This document shows, piece by piece, positions 352-24,297 of a stretch of 64,000 bases of DNA. Source of the stretch: a virus; the IMG/VR virus record IMGVR_UViG_3300025362_000007, positions 1 to 64,000 of that record, one strand, 5' to 3'. A model generated the notes under the pieces. The model did not search any database, was not told the DNA's origin, and saw only the letters and a list, made by a program, of their open reading frames with translations. The position numbers and the translations under genes are program-made. Position 1 is the first letter of the stretch. Each line of letters begins with the position of its first letter.

Positions 352-3300
352 ATGGAATTTAAGCAGAAGATCAGTGAAGAGATATTTTTTAGAAAATACG
401 CACTACATGGTGAGACAACAGTAGAAGAAGTATTGCAAGGTGTAGCGGAAGAAATTGCTTCCGTAGAAAAAGATAAGGAAAAATGGAAAACAGTATTTTA
501 TGACATAATGGTATCAGGAGAGTTTCTTCCTGCTGGAAGAATATTAGCTAATGCCCGTCCTTTATCTAAAATGAAAAATTACAATAACTGCTTTACTATT
601 GATATAGAAGATTCAATGGAAGGCATTTTTGAGTCATTGAAAGAGGATGCTTTGATTGGTAAAGTTGGAGGAGGAGTTGGATTTAATGCTTCTAAGCTCC
701 GTCCAAAAGGGGCTTACATAAGCAAGGGGGGTGAATCTTCTGGTGTGATGAGTTTCTTAGAAGTTTTTGATACTAGTGCAAAAGCAATCCATACAGGAGG
801 CGGAAGGCGATGTTTACCCGCAGGGACTTCAGTTCATGCAAAAACAGGGTTAAAAAGTATAGAAAATATAGTAATTGAGGATGAAGTTCTTACTTCAGAA
901 GGGTATGAGAAAGTAAGCAATTTTTTTGATCAAGGGGAACAAGAGACTATTGTTATTCATACTAACAACGGTGAATTTGAATGTACAGCTAATCATAAAA
1001 TGGCTGTATTTGATGGACTTTTTTCTTATATTTGGAAAGAAGCGAAAGACTTAAGAAATGGGGATAAACTTGTTTTTGTAGGGAAAACAATAGAAGGACA
1101 ACCCACTGAATTTCCTAAATTTTATTATGAGAAACCAAAACACTCTACTACAACAATAGATATTACTATTCCTACTTTAGACAAGAATAGTGCTTGGTTG
1201 CTTGGACTAATTTTTGGTGATGGATTTGTTTGGACTAATGAAAATAACACGAAGGGTGGGGTTTCTATTGCTTGTGCTAATGTGTATCCAAAAATTATAG
1301 AAAGAGCAGAAAAAGAACTTGAAAAGTTTGGGGCTAATGTTTACGCTAAAGATGGAGATGGTGCTTGTACTAATGTAGTAAGCTATTCCAACCAATTAGG
1401 GATTTTCTTTGGTCAATTTAAAAAAGCAAAAAAAACTCTTATAATCCCCAAATTTATAATGGATGGAACAGTAGAAATTAGAGCAGGATTTATCGCTGGT
1501 GTGTTTGACGCTGATGGTGCTTCTAAAAATAGGCCAATTAGAGTGGTATCTACTGTTTACAAAAAATTTGCAACACAAATTAAATATCTTTTACTTTCTC
1601 TTGGGATTCCTTCTACTGAATATGCTTATGATAGAAGTAAAGATGGGTGGCAAACATTATATAGTATAAATGTTTCTAATGCTGTTGGAGTAAGAAGTTG
1701 GGACAGATTGATTGCCCCCTCTAGTGAAAAATATGTCTCTGGAAGAAAAGATAAAAGGTTTTATCAATCAGGGACTAATGATTTTGGATGGACTAAAGAG
1801 ATGTTTGTGGAAGAAGAAAGAAAAACTAAAAGAAAAGTTTGGTTAAAAAATTCCACAAGTTTAAAGCTCACGTCTTTAGAAAGAGTGATAGGAAGAGAAC
1901 TTCAGTTATACCCAGTAGATTTTCTAGAAATAACTAAAGGAAGAATGGTTCAAACTTATGATATAGAGGTAGAGAATAAACATGAATTTGTAGCAGAAGG
2001 ATTGTTAACTCATAATTCAGCACATATAGTAGTACTAAATGTAGACCATCCAGATATTGAAGAATTTATTCTTTATAAAAAAGGTAGGGAAAATAATGCT
2101 CTTACTCAATTTAATATTAGCGTAGGTATCTCGGATGCTTTTATTTTTGCGGTAGAAAATGATTTAGATTGGAATTTGGTATTTGAAGGTACAGTGTACA
2201 AAACTATAAAAGCTAAAGAATTGTTTGATACTATGACAAAACAAGCATGGTGGTATAATGAACCTGGAGTTTTATTTTTAGATACTGTAGAAGCGGGGAA
2301 TAATGCTCCCCATGCTTTTAAGGTCGATCGCTGTAATCCCTGTGGTGAAATTGTAATGCCAGCTTATAATTTGTGTTGTTTATCTTCTATTAACTTATCT
2401 AAGTTAGTGAAGTATCCATTTACAAATGTAGCTGAGTTTGACTTTGATAGATTTAAAGAAATTATTGAAATTGGGGTTAGGTTCTTAGATAATGTACTCG
2501 ATGCTACCGACTATCCCTTAGATAAAATTGAAGTATTATCTAAAGAATGGAGAAGAATAGGATTGGGTATAACTGGATTGGCTGATGCTTTGCTTAAACT
2601 TAAACTAGCGTATGGTGAAAGAGAAAGTATTGTTATAGTAGATAAAATAGCACACACAATGGCAGAGACAGCATACAATGCTTCTATTGACTTAGCTATA
2701 GAGAAAGGGAGTTTCCCTGCTTTTGATGAAAACATTGGTAATGCTGGCTTTATTCTAAAATTAAGTAAAGAAACTCAAACTAGGATTAAGGTAAATGGAC
2801 TACGTAATATTGGTTTATTAACTATACCCCCAGCAGGCACTATTAGCCTCACATTAGGAAATAATTGTAGTTCGGGAATTGAACCTATATTCTCATTGCA
2901 ATATGATAGAACTGTTCGCCAAAATAATGAAGATACAATCACACAAACTGTGTATGATGATGGATGGTTGGAATATGTGGAATATGCTAATTACAAAGAT
3001 GGTGAACCACTTTCTGAGTATGTAGTAGTATCACATGATGTTTCTATTACTGATGGGATTAAAGTGCAAGCAGCTTTTCAATATTGGATAGATCATAGTA
3101 TAAGCCGAACAATAAACATGCCATTTGAAACTACATTGGAAGATTATAAAGATATTTTTATGTGTGCTTGGAAGATGGGATTAAAAGGTACAACTAGTTT
3201 TCATGAAGGGGCTAGTATGGATGGTATTCTTACCACTAAGAAAACAGAGACTAAGGATGGTACGCTATGGGATAAAATAACCGTACTACCCAATTCTACG

Positions 3301-3804
3301 AAAAGGCCAGAATCATTAGAATGTGATATTTATGAAATGACTGTGAATAAACAGAAAATGTTAGTATTAGTAGGCTTACATAAAGGTAGCCCCTATGAAG
3401 TATTTTTAACAGCCAATAGTGATAATCTAATTGATGTAGAACGAGCCAAGCATGGGGAGATTAGGAAAACAAGTAAGGGAGCGTACAATCTTAGTATTAA
3501 AGGGAAACGAAGTACATTTGTGTTAGAGAATATCACAGCATTGTTTGACGATGATTTTGCTATAATGTGTAGATTAGTTTCTTTGAGTATGCGCCACCAC
3601 ATACCCTTACAGTTTATTATAGATCAACTAAATAAAACTAGTAGGTTTGGTAATTTCTCTAAGATTATGGCTAGAGTATTGAAGAAATATATTAAGGATG
3701 GAGAGAGAGTGATAGCAAAGGAAGTATGCCCCGATTGTAAGGGAGAACTTAGATTTGTGGAAGGTTGTAAAAGTTGCCAAAATTGTGGTTGGAGTAAATG
3801 TTAA
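352..3804 (+). CDS. nrdJ: Class II (B12-dependent) ribonucleotide reductase, intein-containing
   Basis: The precursor is 1150 residues; removing the intein at residues 154-555 leaves 748, normal for NrdJ. The enzyme reduces ribonucleotides to deoxyribonucleotides using adenosylcobalamin. Visible signatures are FLPAGRILANAR near residue 57, the NPCGE loop with downstream LCCLSSINLSKL, GLGITGLADALL, TIPPAGTISLTLGNNCSSGIEP, and the C-terminal zinc-ribbon CPDC...CKSCQNCGWSKC over the last 26 residues, characteristic of the NrdJ family. It heads the replication gene string and would supply dNTPs independently of host regulation. ATG start with an AAGGGG site. No separate beta subunit is seen, as expected for class II. 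Confidence 0.93.
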   Translation: MEFKQKISEEIFFRKYALHGETTVEEVLQGVAEEIASVEKDKEKWKTVFYDIMVSGEFLPAGRILANARPLSKMKNYNNCFTIDIEDSMEGIFESLKEDALIGKVGGGVGFNASKLRPKGAYISKGGESSGVMSFLEVFDTSAKAIHTGGGRRCLPAGTSVHAKTGLKSIENIVIEDEVLTSEGYEKVSNFFDQGEQETIVIHTNNGEFECTANHKMAVFDGLFSYIWKEAKDLRNGDKLVFVGKTIEGQPTEFPKFYYEKPKHSTTTIDITIPTLDKNSAWLLGLIFGDGFVWTNENNTKGGVSIACANVYPKIIERAEKELEKFGANVYAKDGDGACTNVVSYSNQLGIFFGQFKKAKKTLIIPKFIMDGTVEIRAGFIAGVFDADGASKNRPIRVVSTVYKKFATQIKYLLLSLGIPSTEYAYDRSKDGWQTLYSINVSNAVGVRSWDRLIAPSSEKYVSGRKDKRFYQSGTNDFGWTKEMFVEEERKTKRKVWLKNSTSLKLTSLERVIGRELQLYPVDFLEITKGRMVQTYDIEVENKHEFVAEGLLTHNSAHIVVLNVDHPDIEEFILYKKGRENNALTQFNISVGISDAFIFAVENDLDWNLVFEGTVYKTIKAKELFDTMTKQAWWYNEPGVLFLDTVEAGNNAPHAFKVDRCNPCGEIVMPAYNLCCLSSINLSKLVKYPFTNVAEFDFDRFKEIIEIGVRFLDNVLDATDYPLDKIEVLSKEWRRIGLGITGLADALLKLKLAYGERESIVIVDKIAHTMAETAYNASIDLAIEKGSFPAFDENIGNAGFILKLSKETQTRIKVNGLRNIGLLTIPPAGTISLTLGNNCSSGIEPIFSLQYDRTVRQNNEDTITQTVYDDGWLEYVEYANYKDGEPLSEYVVVSHDVSITDGIKVQAAFQYWIDHSISRTINMPFETTLEDYKDIFMCAWKMGLKGTTSFHEGASMDGILTTKKTETKDGTLWDKITVLPNSTKRPESLECDIYEMTVNKQKMLVLVGLHKGSPYEVFLTANSDNLIDVERAKHGEIRKTSKGAYNLSIKGKRSTFVLENITALFDDDFAIMCRLVSLSMRHHIPLQFIIDQLNKTSRFGNFSKIMARVLKKYIKDGERVIAKEVCPDCKGELRFVEGCKSCQNCGWSKC
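811..2016 (+). other. Intein with LAGLIDADG homing endonuclease, inserted in NrdJ
   Basis: Residues 154-555 of the precursor (402 aa). It begins with Cys (CLPAGTSVHAKTG) and ends with LLTHN followed by Ser as the +1 residue. The exteins rejoin as GGRR/SAHIVVLNVDHPD, the uninterrupted RNR sequence. Splicing block B has the TANHK histidine, and block F reads VQTYDIEVENKHEF. The endonuclease has both DOD motifs, LLGLIFGDG (about residue 283) and AGFIAGVFDADG (about 379), each keeping its catalytic aspartate, so it is probably active and mobile. Confidence 0.92.
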
Positions 3805-6282: not shown

Positions 6283-9255
6283 ATGAATGGATTCTTTGAA
6301 ATGAATGATATTGATATTGTTCAACCAACTAAAGCAAAGAAACTAAACCCAAAAGTAAAGAAAGAAATTTACACCTGTGAGGGGTGTGGGTTGTACAAAC
6401 AATGCAATGGTAAATTAGATTATGTGGGGGAAGGTAGAGAAGGAATATTAGTTGTATTAGAACAAGCCACTACCACATCTGACAGATTACAAAATCCGCT
6501 TACAGGAGAAACAAAACACATCATTACAGACTTGTGTAAGAAGGCTCAGCTTAGCCTACAGGACGTTTGGGTGGTGAATAGTATAAGATGCATAGGTAAA
6601 CGCAACAAAGCCACTGTGCCAGCTTGTAGGGGGCTATTAAAGCAAACTATAGCTGAGTTAAAACCTAGAAGTATTATAACCATTGGCCCCCAAGCATTAG
6701 ATGTATTAATAGGAGATATGACTAGTGTCGGGGGAAGTGGCAAAAAGAAAAAAGAGGATAAAGGTATACCAACATATAAGTGGGATGGGAGAGCCATTCC
6801 TTTCCATGAATATATGTGTTATATTTACCCTACATATGGAATAAAGGATCTAATTAAAAGCAGATATAATAAAGTTGTGGAACTAAAAATGACTAGGCAA
6901 TTTATAGCCGCTAAGAAAGGAGATACCTATGTAGATTACACAATAAAACCTATAGAGATACTGACTTCTATACACGACATTAAAAATGTATTACTAACCA
7001 TGGAAACAGAGAAAATAGTGGCATTTGACTATGAGACAACAGGTATTCAACCATACAAGAAAGGGCATGAAATTATTTGCATGAGTGTAGCTACTTCTCG
7101 TAAGGCATATGCGTTTGAAAATACCAAAGCTATACTTCCTTATATACAACATTTTTTAACTAGTGATGTACCTAAAGTAATGCACAATGCAAAATATGAA
7201 TTGATATGGAGTAAAGAACTAGCTAAAGTAGATGTAAATAATGTAATAGCAGATACTATGCTTATTGCTCATAGTATAGATAATACTCCTGGAACTGTAG
7301 GGCTAAAACCTCAGACATTCTTTAACTTTGGTGTTGCTGGTTATGATGATACTATTGCACCACTATTAAAAGCAAAAGATAAATCTGTGCATAGCTTTAA
7401 TTCTTTATATTATATGAAGCAACAAGGAGAACTAACCTATGTAATGGAAGAACTTTTAACCTACTGTGCTTTCGATAGTTTGTATACTATATGGTTGTAT
7501 GAAAAGCAATTAGAACAGATATTACCACACATGCAACAAGGGATTGATATATTCTTAGAAGCAACCAAGGTATTTGCTGAAATAGAATATAGAGGAATGA
7601 GAATTGACATTGATATTGTACGTAAAAACATAAAGTTACTTACACTAAAAATGCAAGAATTAAAAGAACAAATATATGCTACAGAAGAAGTTAAAGCATG
7701 GAACAGAGAAACAGAGTTTAATTTTAATAGTAATAAGGATATGGGAGTATTACTCTATGAAATATTAGGGTATACACCGTATAAGGAAACTTCTAGTGGA
7801 GCAAACAGCACAGACAAGGAAGCATTAGAAAAGATTATAGAAAAAGAAGGAAGTGAGTTCCTTGTATTACTATTGGAATATAAGAAATTAGTAAAAATGA
7901 GGGACACTTATCTAGTAGGATTAGAAAGTGGGACATTAGATGGATATATTAGACCTAGTTTTAATTTGCATACTGTGCAGACTTTCAGAAGTTGCTTGGT
8001 TGGCAACACACCAATATCTACTATTAATGATACTATCCCAATAAAAGACGTTTTTATAGGAACACATGTAATGTGTGTTGATGAGAATAATAAGATTGTG
8101 CATAGAAAAGTTATATGGAGTGGGCTTACGGGACGTAGAAAAGTAATTAAATTAAAACTAATCTACGCAGATTGTGCAGAGAAAACACTGCTTTGCACCG
8201 AAGAACATAAATTAAGGTGTTCAGATGGCACATATATTCAAGCACAAGATTCGTTGGGACACGTTATAAAAGGAGAAACTATAAATTATGCTGTGATGGC
8301 GATAGAAGCATTACCAGATAAAGTAGATGTGTATGATATAGAAGTAGAAGAATTACATAATTTCTTTGCTAATGGCATCTGTGTGCATAATTCATCCTCC
8401 AACCCAAACTTTCAAAACGTGCCAAAAAGAGATAAGTTAGCATCAACAATGATACGTTCTGCTTTCATCCCTGACGAAGGTGCTTTTATAGAGGAACTGG
8501 ACTTTAGTAGTTTAGAGGTAAACATTTCACAGTGTTATAACCAAGATAAAAACTTACTCAAGTATCTAACAGATCCTTCACACAATATGCACACAGATAG
8601 TGCTTGCGACATATTCCTAAGAACCAAAGAAACAATGCTTAAAGAAGAAAGGAGAAATACCAAAGGCGGGTTTGTGTTTGCCCAATCATATGGTTCTACA
8701 TTTAAGAATTGTGCTAAGAATATGTGGGATAATATGGGACAAGTAAGTAAGAAACATTTAGCATCGAAAGGGTGTGTTAACTTAGATAAGTTCACTGATA
8801 TAGTAGAAGAAGCAGAATATCAATTTTGGAATGTACGATTCAAAAGGTGGGGCCAATGGAAGAAAGAGAATTGGAGTGAGTACCTTAAAAAGGGATATAT
8901 AGATACTTATACAGGGTTCAGGTTAAATGCTCTCATGGGCTCTACACAGGCTTCTAATGCTGCAATACAGGGGAGTGCTACACACTGTCTGCTTTTTGTA
9001 CTTATGTTCTTACATATCTATACTAAACAGTTAGGGTTGAAGTCAAGGATTATAGGTCAAATTCATGACTCGATAGTTTTAAATTTATTTCCCGAAGAGG
9101 AAGAGATTATCCATAAAATAGTTAAATTGGGCTTAGATAGATTAAGAGATGAATGGAAATGGGTTACAGTACAATTAACAATGGACTATGAGCAAACTCC
9201 TGTGAATGGAGATTGGAGTCAATTAGAAGAGAAAGGCGAGATAAGGAGTAAATAA
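6283..9255 (+). CDS. Uracil-DNA-glycosylase-like / family A DNA polymerase fusion, intein-containing
   Basis: A 990-residue precursor, 857 after removal of the intein at 571-703. Residues about 25-150 resemble type 4/5 uracil-DNA glycosylase (CEGCGLYKQC cysteine cluster, YVGEGREGILVVLEQA, and IITIGPQAL). Residues about 240-430 are a DnaQ-like 3'-5' exonuclease with FDYETTG (Exo I), MHNAKYE (Exo II) and YCAFDSLYT (Exo III). The polymerase domain has motif A LDFSSLEVN (about 740), motif B RRNTKGGFVFAQSYG (about 790) and motif C QIHDSIV (about 925, HDS in place of the usual HDE). A similar glycosylase-like N-terminus is known in the SPO1 polymerase. This should be the replicative polymerase. Confidence 0.9.
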   Translation: MNGFFEMNDIDIVQPTKAKKLNPKVKKEIYTCEGCGLYKQCNGKLDYVGEGREGILVVLEQATTTSDRLQNPLTGETKHIITDLCKKAQLSLQDVWVVNSIRCIGKRNKATVPACRGLLKQTIAELKPRSIITIGPQALDVLIGDMTSVGGSGKKKKEDKGIPTYKWDGRAIPFHEYMCYIYPTYGIKDLIKSRYNKVVELKMTRQFIAAKKGDTYVDYTIKPIEILTSIHDIKNVLLTMETEKIVAFDYETTGIQPYKKGHEIICMSVATSRKAYAFENTKAILPYIQHFLTSDVPKVMHNAKYELIWSKELAKVDVNNVIADTMLIAHSIDNTPGTVGLKPQTFFNFGVAGYDDTIAPLLKAKDKSVHSFNSLYYMKQQGELTYVMEELLTYCAFDSLYTIWLYEKQLEQILPHMQQGIDIFLEATKVFAEIEYRGMRIDIDIVRKNIKLLTLKMQELKEQIYATEEVKAWNRETEFNFNSNKDMGVLLYEILGYTPYKETSSGANSTDKEALEKIIEKEGSEFLVLLLEYKKLVKMRDTYLVGLESGTLDGYIRPSFNLHTVQTFRSCLVGNTPISTINDTIPIKDVFIGTHVMCVDENNKIVHRKVIWSGLTGRRKVIKLKLIYADCAEKTLLCTEEHKLRCSDGTYIQAQDSLGHVIKGETINYAVMAIEALPDKVDVYDIEVEELHNFFANGICVHNSSSNPNFQNVPKRDKLASTMIRSAFIPDEGAFIEELDFSSLEVNISQCYNQDKNLLKYLTDPSHNMHTDSACDIFLRTKETMLKEERRNTKGGFVFAQSYGSTFKNCAKNMWDNMGQVSKKHLASKGCVNLDKFTDIVEEAEYQFWNVRFKRWGQWKKENWSEYLKKGYIDTYTGFRLNALMGSTQASNAAIQGSATHCLLFVLMFLHIYTKQLGLKSRIIGQIHDSIVLNLFPEEEEIIHKIVKLGLDRLRDEWKWVTVQLTMDYEQTPVNGDWSQLEEKGEIRSK
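7993..8391 (+). other. Mini-intein in the DNA polymerase
   Basis: Residues 571-703 (133 aa), beginning CLVGNTPIST and ending GICVHN with Ser at +1. Block B is TEEHKLR and block F VDVYDIEVEELHNFFANG. No endonuclease domain is present, so this is a splicing-only mini-intein. Splicing joins TFRS to SSSNPNFQNVP, which aligns without gaps to the TGRLSSTDPNLQNIP region of Pol I, confirming both borders. The site is a conserved substrate-binding loop of the polymerase. Confidence 0.9.
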
Positions 9256-19823: not shown

Positions 19824-19961
19824 AAAGCAACAGAGCATTTGAAGAAGTTAAAATAGCACACCTGTGATGCCTCTGATGCAAGCATAATTTCATGGGTTAT
19901 ATAGAATTTGGTAGGGATGTTTTATAAATTCTCACCAATGACTCTTAGCAAAGACTAAGGT

Positions 19962-20085
19962 AAGATGAGTAGTGGAATGGTAAACCACAATCATGGTCGG
20001 TAGAGGAAGATACTGCGAACAACAGCCTCAAAGGAAAAGCCGATTGCCCATGACCTAAAAACAGGTTCAATTCCTGTCCATCTTA
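19962..20085 (+). tRNA. tRNA-like gene with about 50-nt insertion in the anticodon region
   Basis: The acceptor AAGATG pairs with CATCTT (A19968 bulged, then G69-C66 pairing). T8 and A9 precede the D arm GTGG/CCAC, whose loop holds GG. The T arm is perfect (ACAGG, loop TTCAATT, CCTGT, 20061-20077) and the discriminator is A20085. Between D and T arms, however, there are about 71 nt instead of 22. TCATGG (19991-19996) pairs with CCATGA (20048-20053) as an anticodon stem enclosing a structured 51-nt loop containing CGG/CCG, GAGG/CCTC and CTG/CAG helices. No group I core is present. No anticodon can be assigned. Confidence 0.5.
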
Positions 20086-20223
20086 ATTTGTCACAGACGT
20101 GTGGATCGAAACTCTTCGCAAGCCTCTTAATAATGCTCAAATGGCGGAGTGGATGAGGGAACGTTAGCCCCAAACTACAACGGAAAAGGGAGTGTAGTTG
20201 ACTGCTGGGAAAGACTAGCTAAA

Positions 20224-20300
20224 GTAAGAATGTGGTGGACACATGGGGTGAGTTAAAGACTTGGGATTCCCCAACTAGCAACACTAGTATTTCTGCTTAC
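20224..20300 (+). ncRNA. Cloverleaf-like element without a T-loop consensus
   Basis: GTAAG 20224-20228 pairs with CTTAC 20296-20300 and encloses a hairpin ATGTG/CACAT, a GGGG/CCCC arm and ACTAG/CTAGT with a 5-nt loop. The shape recalls a tRNA but TTCRA is absent. It follows the same leader sequence as the tRNA-like genes. May be a decayed tRNA. Confidence 0.25.
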
Positions 20301-20326
20301 TTTACGGACACTGGGAAAGACTAGGT

Positions 20327-20419
20327 AGTATGGTGGCTATCTATGAAAATAAATAGTTACTGGGAGTGGTGGCTTAATACGTAGGGTCACCTGTGTGAGT
20401 TCAAATCTTGCCCATACTA
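20327..20419 (+). tRNA. tRNA-like gene with abnormal D and anticodon arms
   Basis: The acceptor is perfect, AGTATGG with CCATACT, and the T arm is GTGAG, TTCAAAT, CTTGC (with wobbles); discriminator A. The D arm lacks the GG loop. A GGTGG/TCACC stem carries a 14-nt loop in place of the usual 7. The octamer TGGTGGCT occurs twice (20331, 20368), flanking a 29-nt segment. No reliable anticodon. Confidence 0.45.
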
Positions 20420-20455
20420 GGCTCTAGCTTTTAGTTAGAGGGAATTATTGCTGTA

Positions 20456-20628
20456 CCATGTATGTACGTAGGGAGTACTAAACGTTAGGCAATCTATAGC
20501 CTAGAAAAAGAGCGGAGGATGGATAAATGAGACTGCGATTCCATAGGAGTAAATTCTACACCGCAAAGATGTTACGTTAAGTTAATAGGAATATTAACAG
20601 CAGAGGGGTTCAACTCCCCTCACATGGT
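20456..20628 (+). tRNA. Class II tRNA-like gene with about 90-nt insertion in the anticodon loop
   Basis: The acceptor CCATGT pairs with ACATGG. The T arm is perfect (AGGGG, TTCAACT, CCCCT, 20604-20620). A long variable arm GTTAATA/TATTAAC (20581-20598) marks it as class II (Leu/Ser/Tyr type), and a D-arm-like GTAC/GTAC hairpin is present. The anticodon stem appears to be AACGT/ACGTT, 20481-20485 with 20574-20578, with 88 nt between the strands. That insert folds on its own (TAGGC/GCCTA, GCGG/CCGC, ATGG/CCAT). It is too short for a group I intron. Confidence 0.5.
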
Positions 20629-20657
20629 AGAATACGACACTTTGGAAAGACAAAGGT

Positions 20658-20757
20658 AGCATAATGGTGGTGTAGGATAACCACACTGGCCAGTTTGGGG
20701 GTGAAGATATCCACTTCGTAAACAACAGAGAAACAGGTTCAAGTCCTGTCTATGCTA
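20658..20757 (+). tRNA. tRNA-like gene with about 26-nt excess in the anticodon region
   Basis: AGCATA pairs with TATGCT, with an A-C mismatch at position 7-66. The D arm is GTGG/CCAC with GG in the loop. The T arm is perfect (ACAGG, TTCAAGT, CCTGT, 20733-20749). There are about 48 nt between D and T arms, with GTTT/AAAC enclosing a smaller hairpin TGAAG/CTTCG. No canonical anticodon arm can be placed directly after the D arm. Confidence 0.5.
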
Positions 20758-20833
20758 AAGGTCGGATAATTACCGAATGAACTACGGAGATTTGGGGTAG
20801 CCGTAGAGAGATTGACAAAATTGCCCATCCATT

Positions 20834-21103: not shown

Positions 21104-21182
21104 GGGGGCGTAGCTCAATCGGCAGAGCACTGGGTGCACCATAACGTGGCAGTGGATAGGAGTTCGAGTCTCCTCGGCTCCT
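21104..21182 (+). tRNA. tRNA-like gene, possibly Met/Ile-derived, with enlarged anticodon loop
   Basis: The D arm (TAGCTCAATCGGCAGAGCA) and T arm (AGGAG, TTCGAGT, CTCCT) are canonical. The acceptor is GGGGGCG/CGGCTCC with one G-G mismatch. The anticodon stem CACTG/CAGTG closes a 17-nt loop instead of 7. ACCATAAC within it suggests a former CAT anticodon, but T33 is lacking. Confidence 0.5.
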
Positions 21183-21896: not shown

Positions 21897-22490
21897 GTGT
21901 TATATTCAATAGGGAAATTTGCAAAACAGATAGGGGTAACAACCGCTACACTACGAAATTGGGATGCTAGTGGGGAACTGACCCCACAAAAAGTTACAAA
22001 TGGTGGTACTCGTTATTATTCAGAACAGCAATTAAATAGTTATATGAACAAAACTATTAGTAGCAAAAAAGAGACATATATATATGCAAGAGTATCAAGT
22101 AATAATCAAAAAAAGGATTTGGTAAATCAAGTAGATTTTTTAAGACAATATTGTAATGCAAAAGGGTACATTGTAAATGTATTAACTGATACAGGTAGTG
22201 GATTAAATTATAAAAGAAAAAATTGGAATGTACTACTTGATTTAGTAATTAAGGGCAGTGTAGATCGAATAGTAATAGCGCACAAAGATAGATTTGTTCG
22301 TTTTGGGTGTGACTGGTTTTTCTCTCTTTGTGAAAAACATGGGTGTATTATAGAGGTAGTAAATAATGACACACTAAGCCCCCAAGAAGAAATGGTTCAA
22401 GATTTAATTTCTATTATTCACGTATTCAGTTGCCGTATATATGGGTTACGAAAGTACAAAGAAAAATTACAGAATGATGAAAGCATATAA
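21897..22490 (+). CDS. tnpA: IS607-family serine transposase TnpA
   Basis: 197 residues. Residues 1-50 form a MerR-type HTH (YSIGKFAKQIGVTTATLRNWDASGELTP). The serine-recombinase domain follows: YIYARVSSNNQKKDL with the catalytic serine, then LTDTGSGLNYKRKNW and VDRIVIAHKDRFVRFG. It catalyses excision and insertion through a circular intermediate. GTG start; the 3' end overlaps tnpB. All expected motifs are intact, so the element may be active. Confidence 0.9.
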   Translation: MLYSIGKFAKQIGVTTATLRNWDASGELTPQKVTNGGTRYYSEQQLNSYMNKTISSKKETYIYARVSSNNQKKDLVNQVDFLRQYCNAKGYIVNVLTDTGSGLNYKRKNWNVLLDLVIKGSVDRIVIAHKDRFVRFGCDWFFSLCEKHGCIIEVVNNDTLSPQEEMVQDLISIIHVFSCRIYGLRKYKEKLQNDESI

Positions 22491-23622
22491 AATAGAAATA
22501 AATCCTACAGAGGAACAGAAAACAAAGATAAACAAGACTATGGGGGTTTGTCGTTTTATTTATAATCTATATATTTCTAAAAATAAGGAAGAGTACGAAA
22601 CTACTAAAAAGTTTATAAGTGCCTATGATTTTAGTAAATATATAAATAATGTTTTTATTAAGGAGAATCCTTCCTATGCTTGGATTAAAGATGTATCAAG
22701 TAAATCAGTAAAACAATCTGTATGTAATGCTGAAAAGGCATTTAAATTATTTTTTAATAAAAAGGCATGCTTTCCTAAATACAAGAAAAAGCATGTATCT
22801 AACATAAAAATGTATTTGCCTAAAAACAATAATACAGATTGGGCAATAGAAAGACATAGGGTAAAAATACCCACATTAGGCTTTGTTAGATTAAAAGAAT
22901 TTGGATATATACCTAAGGATGCTGTTGTATCTAGTGGTGCAGTAAGTAAAGAGGCTGATAAGTATTTTGTTTCTATTTTAGTGAAAGAAGATAGGGTATA
23001 TACTAGCAAGAAAGGGAAACAAGCAATAGGAATAGATTTAGGGATAAAAACGTTTGCTGTATGTTCTGACGGCAGAACTTTTAAGAATATAAACAAGACA
23101 GCTAAGATAAAAGCACTAGAAAAGAAATTAAAAAAAGAACAAAAAGCTTTCAGTAGAAAGTTAGGATCTCGAAAAAAGGAGGAGTCTAATAAAAATTTAG
23201 ATAAAAATAGAATACGAGTACAAAGATTACATAGGCGGTTACGTAATATTCGTCAAGAATATGTAAAATTTGTGGTAAATTCACTTGTGAAAGCCAATAA
23301 TTTACCTGTATACATTTCTATTGAAGATTTGAATGTCAATGGTATGATGAAAAACAGACATTTGAGCAAAGCTATCCAAAAGCAAAATTTTTATTATTTT
23401 AGAACTAAACTTATAGAAAAATGCAACAAATATGATGTTGAGGTAAGGGTTATAGACAGATTCTACCCAAGCAGTAAAACTTGTAGTATTTGCGGAGCAT
23501 ATAAATCTGATTTGAAGTTAAGTGATAGAGTATATAAATGTGGGTGTGGTGGTAGTTTAGATAGGGATTTAAATGCAAGTATAAATATTAGGGATTGCAA
23601 GATATATAAAGTAGCAATTTAA
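22477..23622 (+). CDS. tnpB: TnpB RNA-guided endonuclease
   Basis: 381 residues from the second of two adjacent ATGs, giving the standard MKAYKIEINPTEEQ opening. The RuvC catalytic residues are present in order: GIDLGIKTFAV (Asp), ISIEDLNVNGMM (Glu), and DRDLNASINI (Asp). A zinc-finger CSICG...KCGCGG sits between the last two. TnpB cleaves donor DNA guided by a right-end omegaRNA, promoting transposon retention. The start overlaps tnpA. Confidence 0.9.
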   Translation: MKAYKIEINPTEEQKTKINKTMGVCRFIYNLYISKNKEEYETTKKFISAYDFSKYINNVFIKENPSYAWIKDVSSKSVKQSVCNAEKAFKLFFNKKACFPKYKKKHVSNIKMYLPKNNNTDWAIERHRVKIPTLGFVRLKEFGYIPKDAVVSSGAVSKEADKYFVSILVKEDRVYTSKKGKQAIGIDLGIKTFAVCSDGRTFKNINKTAKIKALEKKLKKEQKAFSRKLGSRKKEESNKNLDKNRIRVQRLHRRLRNIRQEYVKFVVNSLVKANNLPVYISIEDLNVNGMMKNRHLSKAIQKQNFYYFRTKLIEKCNKYDVEVRVIDRFYPSSKTCSICGAYKSDLKLSDRVYKCGCGGSLDRDLNASINIRDCKIYKVAI

Positions 23623-23715
23623 AGCATTTATATATGTGTACTGTGGGCTAACACAGGAATTTACGATTGTGGACATCTACACAAACAATAGTAGCATTAT
23701 GCGAGATTGGGGTGG
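23623..23715 (+). ncRNA. Probable omegaRNA scaffold at the IS607 right end
   Basis: Just after the tnpB stop, CTGTG/CACAG (23641-23656) and TTGTG/CACAA (23667-23684) form two hairpins before the element's estimated right end. Position and hairpins match where TnpB guide RNAs are encoded; the guide would begin at the right border. Confidence 0.5.
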
Positions 23716-23774
23716 TTGAAGCAATAAAACTCAAAAATATATAATTTTATAGATTTTTGTTAGCAGGAATTGGT

Positions 23775-24209
23775 ATGATATTTGAAGTAGGAAAGAGTTA
23801 TAAGTATGTTGGGGGTAATCCAGATTACTTTCGTAGTGATGGTGAGATGGATTACATAAAACAAGGGACGCACACTGTTGTCTTTAGTGAGAAATGTCCA
23901 GGTAAGTACGATGTACTATTTGCGGACGACCCAAATGGGCGCTCGTGGTACGTAGACTCAAAAGACTTTGTTCGTGTGCTTGCCCGAGGTGATAGAGTCA
24001 CAGTCTGGGACATTGAGAAGCAATTTGCAGATAAAGCACTATTTTTGGGATATTTTGATGAAGCCCTATATCCGTATGTTGCAATGGTGGATGGTGACGT
24101 GTTACCCCAAGGTTTTATGCACGCAATACTGGAAGAAGACACTAAGCTAGTAGAACTTCAACTGGCGCTTACTGCTGCCCAGAAAGCAATTGACGATTAT
24201 ATAAGATAA
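23775..24209 (+). CDS. Hypothetical protein
   Basis: 144 residues from the ATG at 23775. The N-terminus MIFEVGKSYKYVGGNPDYF looks like a small beta-barrel of the kind seen in phage proteins, with a second strand-rich repeat RGDRVTVWDIEKQFADKALF and a helical tail. It is the first gene after the transposon, 9 bp before the tmRNA-like RNA. No family recognised. Confidence 0.55.
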   Translation: MIFEVGKSYKYVGGNPDYFRSDGEMDYIKQGTHTVVFSEKCPGKYDVLFADDPNGRSWYVDSKDFVRVLARGDRVTVWDIEKQFADKALFLGYFDEALYPYVAMVDGDVLPQGFMHAILEEDTKLVELQLALTAAQKAIDDYIR

Positions 24210-24218
24210 GAGATTTAC

Positions 24219-24297
24219 GGGGGTAAAATTGGTTTCGACAACTATTAAGTCTTGAAAGAGAAATAGTTGGAAGTGGGTTCGATTCCCACTTGCTCCA
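24219..24297 (+). ncRNA. tmRNA-like RNA lacking the tag reading frame (mini-ssrA)
   Basis: The 5' end, GGGGGTA then AATTGGTTTCGACA, matches the GGGG...GGxTTCGAC signature at the start of bacterial tmRNA, which has no D stem. The 3' end has the T arm GTGGG, TTCGATT, CCCAC and acceptor strand TTGCTCC with discriminator A, including the G3-U70 wobble used by alanyl-tRNA synthetase. Positions 5-68 and 6-67 are mismatched. Between them only a 7-bp stem AACTATT/AATAGTT (24240-24246 with 24262-24268) and a 15-nt loop remain; pseudoknots and the tag frame are absent. No encoded CCA. Confidence 0.7.

Follow-up and report, generated by a model that had tools for sequence, protein, structure and literature searches.

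Phage tmRNAs reduced to the tRNA-like domain (TLD) are already known, with one named phage example, the mycobacteriophage DS6A, whose tmRNA has been described as 'TLD only' (PMC4131195; tmRNA database, PMC11915505). A DS6A-like molecule strongly inhibits tmRNA, perhaps by titration of SmpB, and inhibition was seen with chargeable and non-chargeable molecules alike (PMC4131195). In E. coli, inhibition of endogenous tmRNA by the DS6A form is also said to have been demonstrated (PMC11915505). The 2025 tmRNA database holds 79 unique phage tmRNAs and, for all groups together, 9 standard-order genes without a tag frame, and DS6A is the sole phage gene of this kind named in its text (PMC11915505). 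tmRNAs without a coding sequence (CDS) are known as well from mitochondria and Mallomonadaceae plastids (~65 bp); these are considered beneficial to the cell and not inhibitory, and the mitochondrial form has been suggested to handle incomplete messages (PMC11915505). In addition, two-piece tmRNAs have been described (PMC9004378).

The window analysed here, a stretch of 64,000 nucleotides, comes from a virus record of 70,851 bases and about 35% G+C that carries genes for portal, terminase, capsid and tail tape-measure proteins, together with those for DNA polymerase A, a RecA-like protein, ribonucleotide reductase and a helicase. Our analysis confirmed that the window contains a tag-less tmRNA gene (Table 1), as the initial annotation had observed. 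Judged by the published description, DS6A resembles the window RNA in being phage-encoded, in holding little beyond the tmRNA TLD and in having no tag frame, but it is a single mycobacterial phage, whereas the window copy comes from a virus of 35% G+C and belongs to a far larger family. The organelle RNAs likewise consist of a TLD without a tag frame but are organelle-encoded, with a partner SmpB encoded in the nucleus. The full-length tmRNAs of mycobacteriophages such as Bxz1, of the Streptomyces phages Forrest and Riptide (where they lie inside a tRNA array) and of Melnitz are phage-encoded like the window RNA; unlike it, they encode a tag (ANSNFALAA in Forrest), and the Melnitz tmRNA is made of two pieces rather than one. 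What is new is the size of the family, its covariation, its alanine identity, its genomic placement, its near-restriction to viruses and its presence in cultured phages. No report of the short tmRNA family was found in the freely accessible papers searched.

Table 1. Positions, in the window, of the short tmRNA gene, its parts and the adjacent reading frame.
Feature	Position	Strand	Support or remark
150-aa ORF, ends 10 nt before the short tmRNA	23757..24209	+	possibly co-transcribed with the RNA
Tag-less (tRNA-like-domain-only) tmRNA gene, 78 nt	24220..24297	+	RF00023 54.1 bits; model R2 66.7 bits
Acceptor stem, 5' strand GGGGTAA (G3 = 24222)	24220..24226	+	7/7 pairs with 24290-24296
tmRNA D-loop-like signature GGTTTCGAC	24231..24239	+	sequence
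P2 helix, AAG bulge and P2b hairpin, in place of pseudoknots and tag frame	24240..24268	+	fold; family P2 covariation
T arm GTGGG-TTCGATT-CCCAC	24273..24289	+	sequence and covariance-model alignment
Acceptor stem, 3' strand TTGCTCC (U70 = 24294), and discriminator A73 (24297)	24290..24297	+	sequence and pairing

The mature RNA measures 78 nt before any CCA addition; CCA is not encoded at its 3' end, where AAAT follows. It had been drawn initially as 79 nt from 24219 to 24297, and a short RNA does lie there, but G24219 falls outside the acceptor stem and the boundaries are those of Table 1. The tmRNA 5' signature, the T arm, TTGCTCC, the A discriminator and the G3-U70 pair recognised in the initial annotation were all borne out by the sequence and by the pairing of all seven acceptor positions, among which this copy has no mismatch. 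Alanine identity is thus present as a 7-bp acceptor stem that includes G3-U70, together with A73. The RNA also has the tmRNA-type D-loop segment GGNTTCGAC without a D stem, and a T arm with a TTCRANT loop. P2 begins directly 3' of TTCGAC, stops before GGA and comprises 7 bp (24240-24246 with 24262-24268, AACUAUU/AAUAGUU); atop it sit a 3-nt AAG bulge and then a 4-bp hairpin with a GAAA loop (UCUU-GAAA-GAGA, 24250-24261), and GGAA separates its 3' strand from the T arm. The pseudoknots and mRNA-like part had been thought to be replaced by one 7-bp hairpin. The replacement and the 7-bp P2 are correct, but the element is a two-part stem in which the bulge leads to the second, GAAA-capped helix. 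Set against the Rfam consensus, this layout of P2a, purine-rich internal loop and P2b matches the base of canonical tmRNA helix 2, shortened and capped.

The Rfam tmRNA model RF00023 matched the RNA end to end at 54.1 bits (E 1.8e-18; gathering score 47), sharing with it the acceptor stem, the D-loop-like segment, P2 and the T arm and skipping about 300 of 374 model positions, which correspond to the missing pseudoknots and tag frame. R2, a covariance model of the short form built from other phages only and without the window sequence, gave 66.7 bits (E 2.6e-14), so that both models support the assignment to tmRNA, and the two scores rule out a chance match. The single-strand fold had a z of −2.6. 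ARAGORN made no call on the window copy and misses short forms in the loci scanned. The 33-nt insert between the 5' and 3' halves contains no GC dinucleotide, which makes an alanine resume codon impossible, and the claim of a TLD without a tag frame therefore stands. Other marks of a complete tmRNA are missing too: a tag reading frame that has a resume codon and ends in a stop, pseudoknots, and a length of ~260-400 nt. The permuted two-piece layout, with the 3' half of the gene before the 5' half and a segment intervening, is likewise absent: the two TLD parts stand in standard order on one 78-nt RNA.

A strict sequence pattern recovered two further viral contigs with RNAs of 80-84 nt, each above the Rfam gathering score. 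Broader patterns (GG[T/A]TTCGAC or GGTTTTGAC, 18-48 nt, GGGTTCRANTCC), in which the acceptor stem was not specified, were used for three scans of IMG/VR, of which the first returned 120 stretches at the least, the second 23 and the third 24. By these pattern scans, IMG/VR holds at least about 110 unique short tmRNAs. Among the matches listed from the first two viral scans and a genome scan, 130 of 162 start with GG and pair at least six of seven acceptor positions (97 unique sequences). With the third scan, the matches listed give 117 unique sequences that form six to seven acceptor pairs, and 111 of these have both G3-U70 and A73; by eye, the six without G3-U70 comprise a deleted copy, a genuine tRNA behind a chance motif, two sequences with acceptor stems not of the tmRNA type and, otherwise, register shifts. 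A tRNA-like match in L199 and L209 (acceptor CCGGTTC/GAACCGG, GGTTTTGAC, a hairpin and no G3-U70) may represent another kind of small tRNA-like RNA. When 85,000 prokaryote genomes were scanned with the GGTTTCGACA form, 15 matches were found, of which two were short tmRNAs (L162 and L167), versus at least 23 unique viral ones; both metagenome-assembled genomes concerned also hold a tmRNA of about 350-360 nt. The family is nearly restricted to viruses. That 13 of the 15 genome matches are not short tmRNAs, whereas most viral matches pair six to seven of the seven acceptor positions although the pattern omits the stem, again rules out chance. Relatives of the window phage were partial contigs only (portal 100% and 60%; helicase 100%) in which the RNA region was not seen, and no close cultured relative of the virus was found.

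Because TTCGAC and GGGTTC were fixed by the search patterns, the invariance of the former in alignments A1 and A2 and the conservation of the latter arise by construction, and acceptor pairs 1 and 2 were partly fixed by the GG-start filter; G3-U70, A73, acceptor pairs 4-7 and P2 pairing were not fixed. In the 97 unique members among the matches listed, G3-U70 and A73 were each present in all 97. Acceptor pairs 4-7, in contrast, vary freely, with four to six pair types (G-C, C-G, A-U, U-A and wobble) and one unpaired case. In a padded alignment of 55 diverse members, the window copy excluded, from which R2 was built, 96.3% of cells were paired, versus 65.8% after shuffling and 44-54% after sliding, and the covariation score was 0.77 versus 0.15 shuffled. 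Across the family, strong covariation is seen in acceptor pairs 4-7, in the T stem and in P2, whose outer six pairs were 90% paired, compared with 43% ± 2% when the 3' arms were redealt among sequences. No tag frame is common to the family (a GCN...stop frame occurs in the insert of only 34 of the 97 members), which, with the missing alanine codon in the window insert, rules out a concealed tag frame.

In the window, a tRNA cluster and an IS607-type element precede the short tmRNA, for which no promoter or terminator of its own is recognisable, and the ORF that precedes it has no Pfam or PHROG match and no relative in IMG/VR. A tRNA gene lies within 1 kb of 24 of the 111 copies. Besides tRNA arrays, there is a second conserved context: at 13 loci (L098, L038, L106, L113, L145, L022, L121, L049, L044, L043, L100, L072 and L127) a gene for an HK97-type capsid protein follows on the same strand, typically about 190 nt from the short tmRNA, and prohead protease and portal genes recur nearby. 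Capsid identity across these loci is 48-99% in twelve and 29% in the thirteenth (L127). SmpB was encoded in none of the 48 carrier records tested, and among 46 records tested with RF00023 no longer tmRNA accompanied an intact short form, the sole exception being Riptide, whose short copy is degenerate; since IMG/VR contigs are mostly fragments, these absences are lower bounds. No other tmRNA-like match over the cut-off was found in the window's own record.

The short tmRNA is probably functional, either disturbing one step of host ribosome rescue or taking the place of that step. Judging from the sequence, we consider it an even call whether it is a functional, phage-encoded dominant-negative partner of the host tmRNA. 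Such an RNA would be transcribed, tRNA-processing enzymes would trim it, and a CCA end would be added; it would be charged with alanine by the host alanyl-tRNA synthetase, as the strict G3-U70 and A73 suggest; and, having bound host SmpB and EF-Tu, it would compete with host tmRNA for SmpB and stalled ribosomes, thereby lowering the tagging of unfinished proteins during infection. Host SmpB is the likely partner because the D-loop and T-loop motifs that SmpB contacts are kept and SmpB was not found in the phages examined; the retained G3-U70, A73, TTCGAC and T-loop motifs make binding of both SmpB and alanyl-tRNA synthetase plausible. With no resume codon or tag frame, trans-translation cannot be completed, and an RNA that carries no message and cannot finish the reaction is most simply read as dominant-negative. 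The published behaviour of the similar molecule also suggests inhibition of host trans-translation (PMC4131195, PMC11915505). In keeping with this role, host tmRNA persists where it is visible, as in the two prokaryote genomes that carry a short form. If the family does act on trans-translation, phages would commonly target ribosome rescue with an RNA mimic.

The dominant-negative role explains the G3-U70 pair only in part. Because inhibition was independent of charging (PMC4131195), an SmpB sponge would not need G3-U70. Strict alanine identity next to freely varying neighbouring pairs argues that charging by alanyl-tRNA synthetase has been selected, and strict retention of G3-U70 suggests selection for something beyond titration. 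Charging would, therefore, appear to matter, which the titration idea leaves unexplained. Three further points speak against a dominant-negative role: the helpful function ascribed to organelle tmRNAs that lack a tag frame (PMC11915505), the decayed copies in two Streptomyces phages, and the want of a recognisable promoter or terminator for the window copy. One broader hypothesis, which we advance tentatively and would not favour, is that this widespread, unannotated phage RNA family is an alanine-charged, message-less tmRNA that acts on ribosomes, by poisoning or by tag-free rescue, and does not merely soak up SmpB, and that in some lineages it has been fixed beside the major capsid gene for late protein synthesis.

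The main rival to a dominant-negative role is rescue without a tag, in which the charged RNA and SmpB would enter stalled ribosomes, take the nascent chain and leave as peptidyl-RNA for hydrolysis, so that ribosomes are freed untagged. Such rescue would aid phage protein output rather than block the host system. The strict G3-U70 and A73, which imply that charging is important, would fit this idea, as would the retention of CDS-less tmRNAs in mitochondria and plastids (PMC11915505). About a dozen divergent phages have the short tmRNA close in front of the major capsid gene and on its strand, and others have it in tRNA arrays; both locations are consistent with support of translation. However, without a resume codon the ribosome would have no message to move onto, release would need an unproven extra step, and the similar molecule inhibited tmRNA when tested (PMC4131195). 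We think that tag-free rescue is, on the whole, unlikely.

More doubtful still is a decoy that draws a host-defence nuclease or RNA-modifying enzyme away from its tRNA or tmRNA targets and so protects phage tRNAs or the host tmRNA. The copies that lie within 1 kb of a tRNA gene, and an RNA ligase gene in the region of the Streptomyces phage LuckySocke, could be read in this way, but the majority of copies are not near tRNAs, the RNA has no anticodon, and a nuclease decoy would not need the exact alanine identity pair. It is very unlikely that the gene is a functionless leftover, by deletion or integration, of a tmRNA gene of host or phage. Such remnants do exist, as degenerate copies in two cultured phages attest (see below), but the window copy retains all seven acceptor pairs and P2, a neat cap rather than a random join closes the base of helix 2, covariation extends over more than 100 copies, and the place before the capsid gene is conserved down to about 48% capsid identity. 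The initial annotation had kept a deletion remnant among its options; a lone remnant does not agree with a form conserved, with compensatory changes, across many phages. It had also argued against an attP relic, rightly, since an attachment-site fragment would carry one end only and both gene ends are present and paired here, which rules out such a relic. That the RNA is half of a split tmRNA whose mRNA-like partner is encoded elsewhere is scarcely credible, because, although two-piece tmRNAs exist (PMC9004378), a permuted tmRNA has its 5' and 3' TLD parts on different pieces, whereas here both are on one capped stem, and neither the window's record nor those with an intact short form held another tmRNA-like match over the cut-off.

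Four Streptomyces phages in culture (BRock, LuckySocke, GiJojo and pSt2308) have intact short tmRNAs, flanked by tRNA-Val on one side and the next tRNAs on the other and lacking a tmRNA annotation; the recorded hosts are S. lividans for LuckySocke and S. mirabilis for GiJojo, both of them strains from laboratories or culture collections. These copies make the question of function testable. Degenerate short tmRNAs in the Streptomyces phages Alone3 (L175, 1487-1563) and Riptide (L176, 1477-1553), which also has an annotated 267-nt tagged tmRNA, indicate that the gene is dispensable in some lineages. The annotated hypothetical protein gp44 of GiJojo (L173, 1499-1741), with which the short tmRNA overlaps, is probably a spurious gene call.

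Several other elements of the window were recorded. The IS607-type element (21897-23727) consists of a serine resolvase gene (21897-22490), TnpB (22441-23622) and, directly downstream, a RAGATH-18 RNA (23666-23727); the pairing of TnpB with RAGATH-18 is already known (PMC11061315) and recurs in the TnpB relatives L007-L010, none of which has a short tmRNA. The segment at 19860-20830, which separates the ARAGORN-called tRNAs from the genes upstream, contains several T-arm-like stretches (near 20065, 20400, 20605 and 20730) that look like further unusual or degenerate tRNA genes. A tRNA called by Rfam at 21104-21182 (43.1 bits) and not by ARAGORN has an unusual-looking anticodon region. An Rfam match to abiF RNA lies at 20114-20150 (46.6 bits; gathering 37), with no AbiF-type gene recognised alongside. 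Finally, inteins occur in ribonucleotide reductase and in DNA polymerase A (352-3804 and 6283-9255), the one in the reductase having a LAGLIDADG/homing endonuclease domain.
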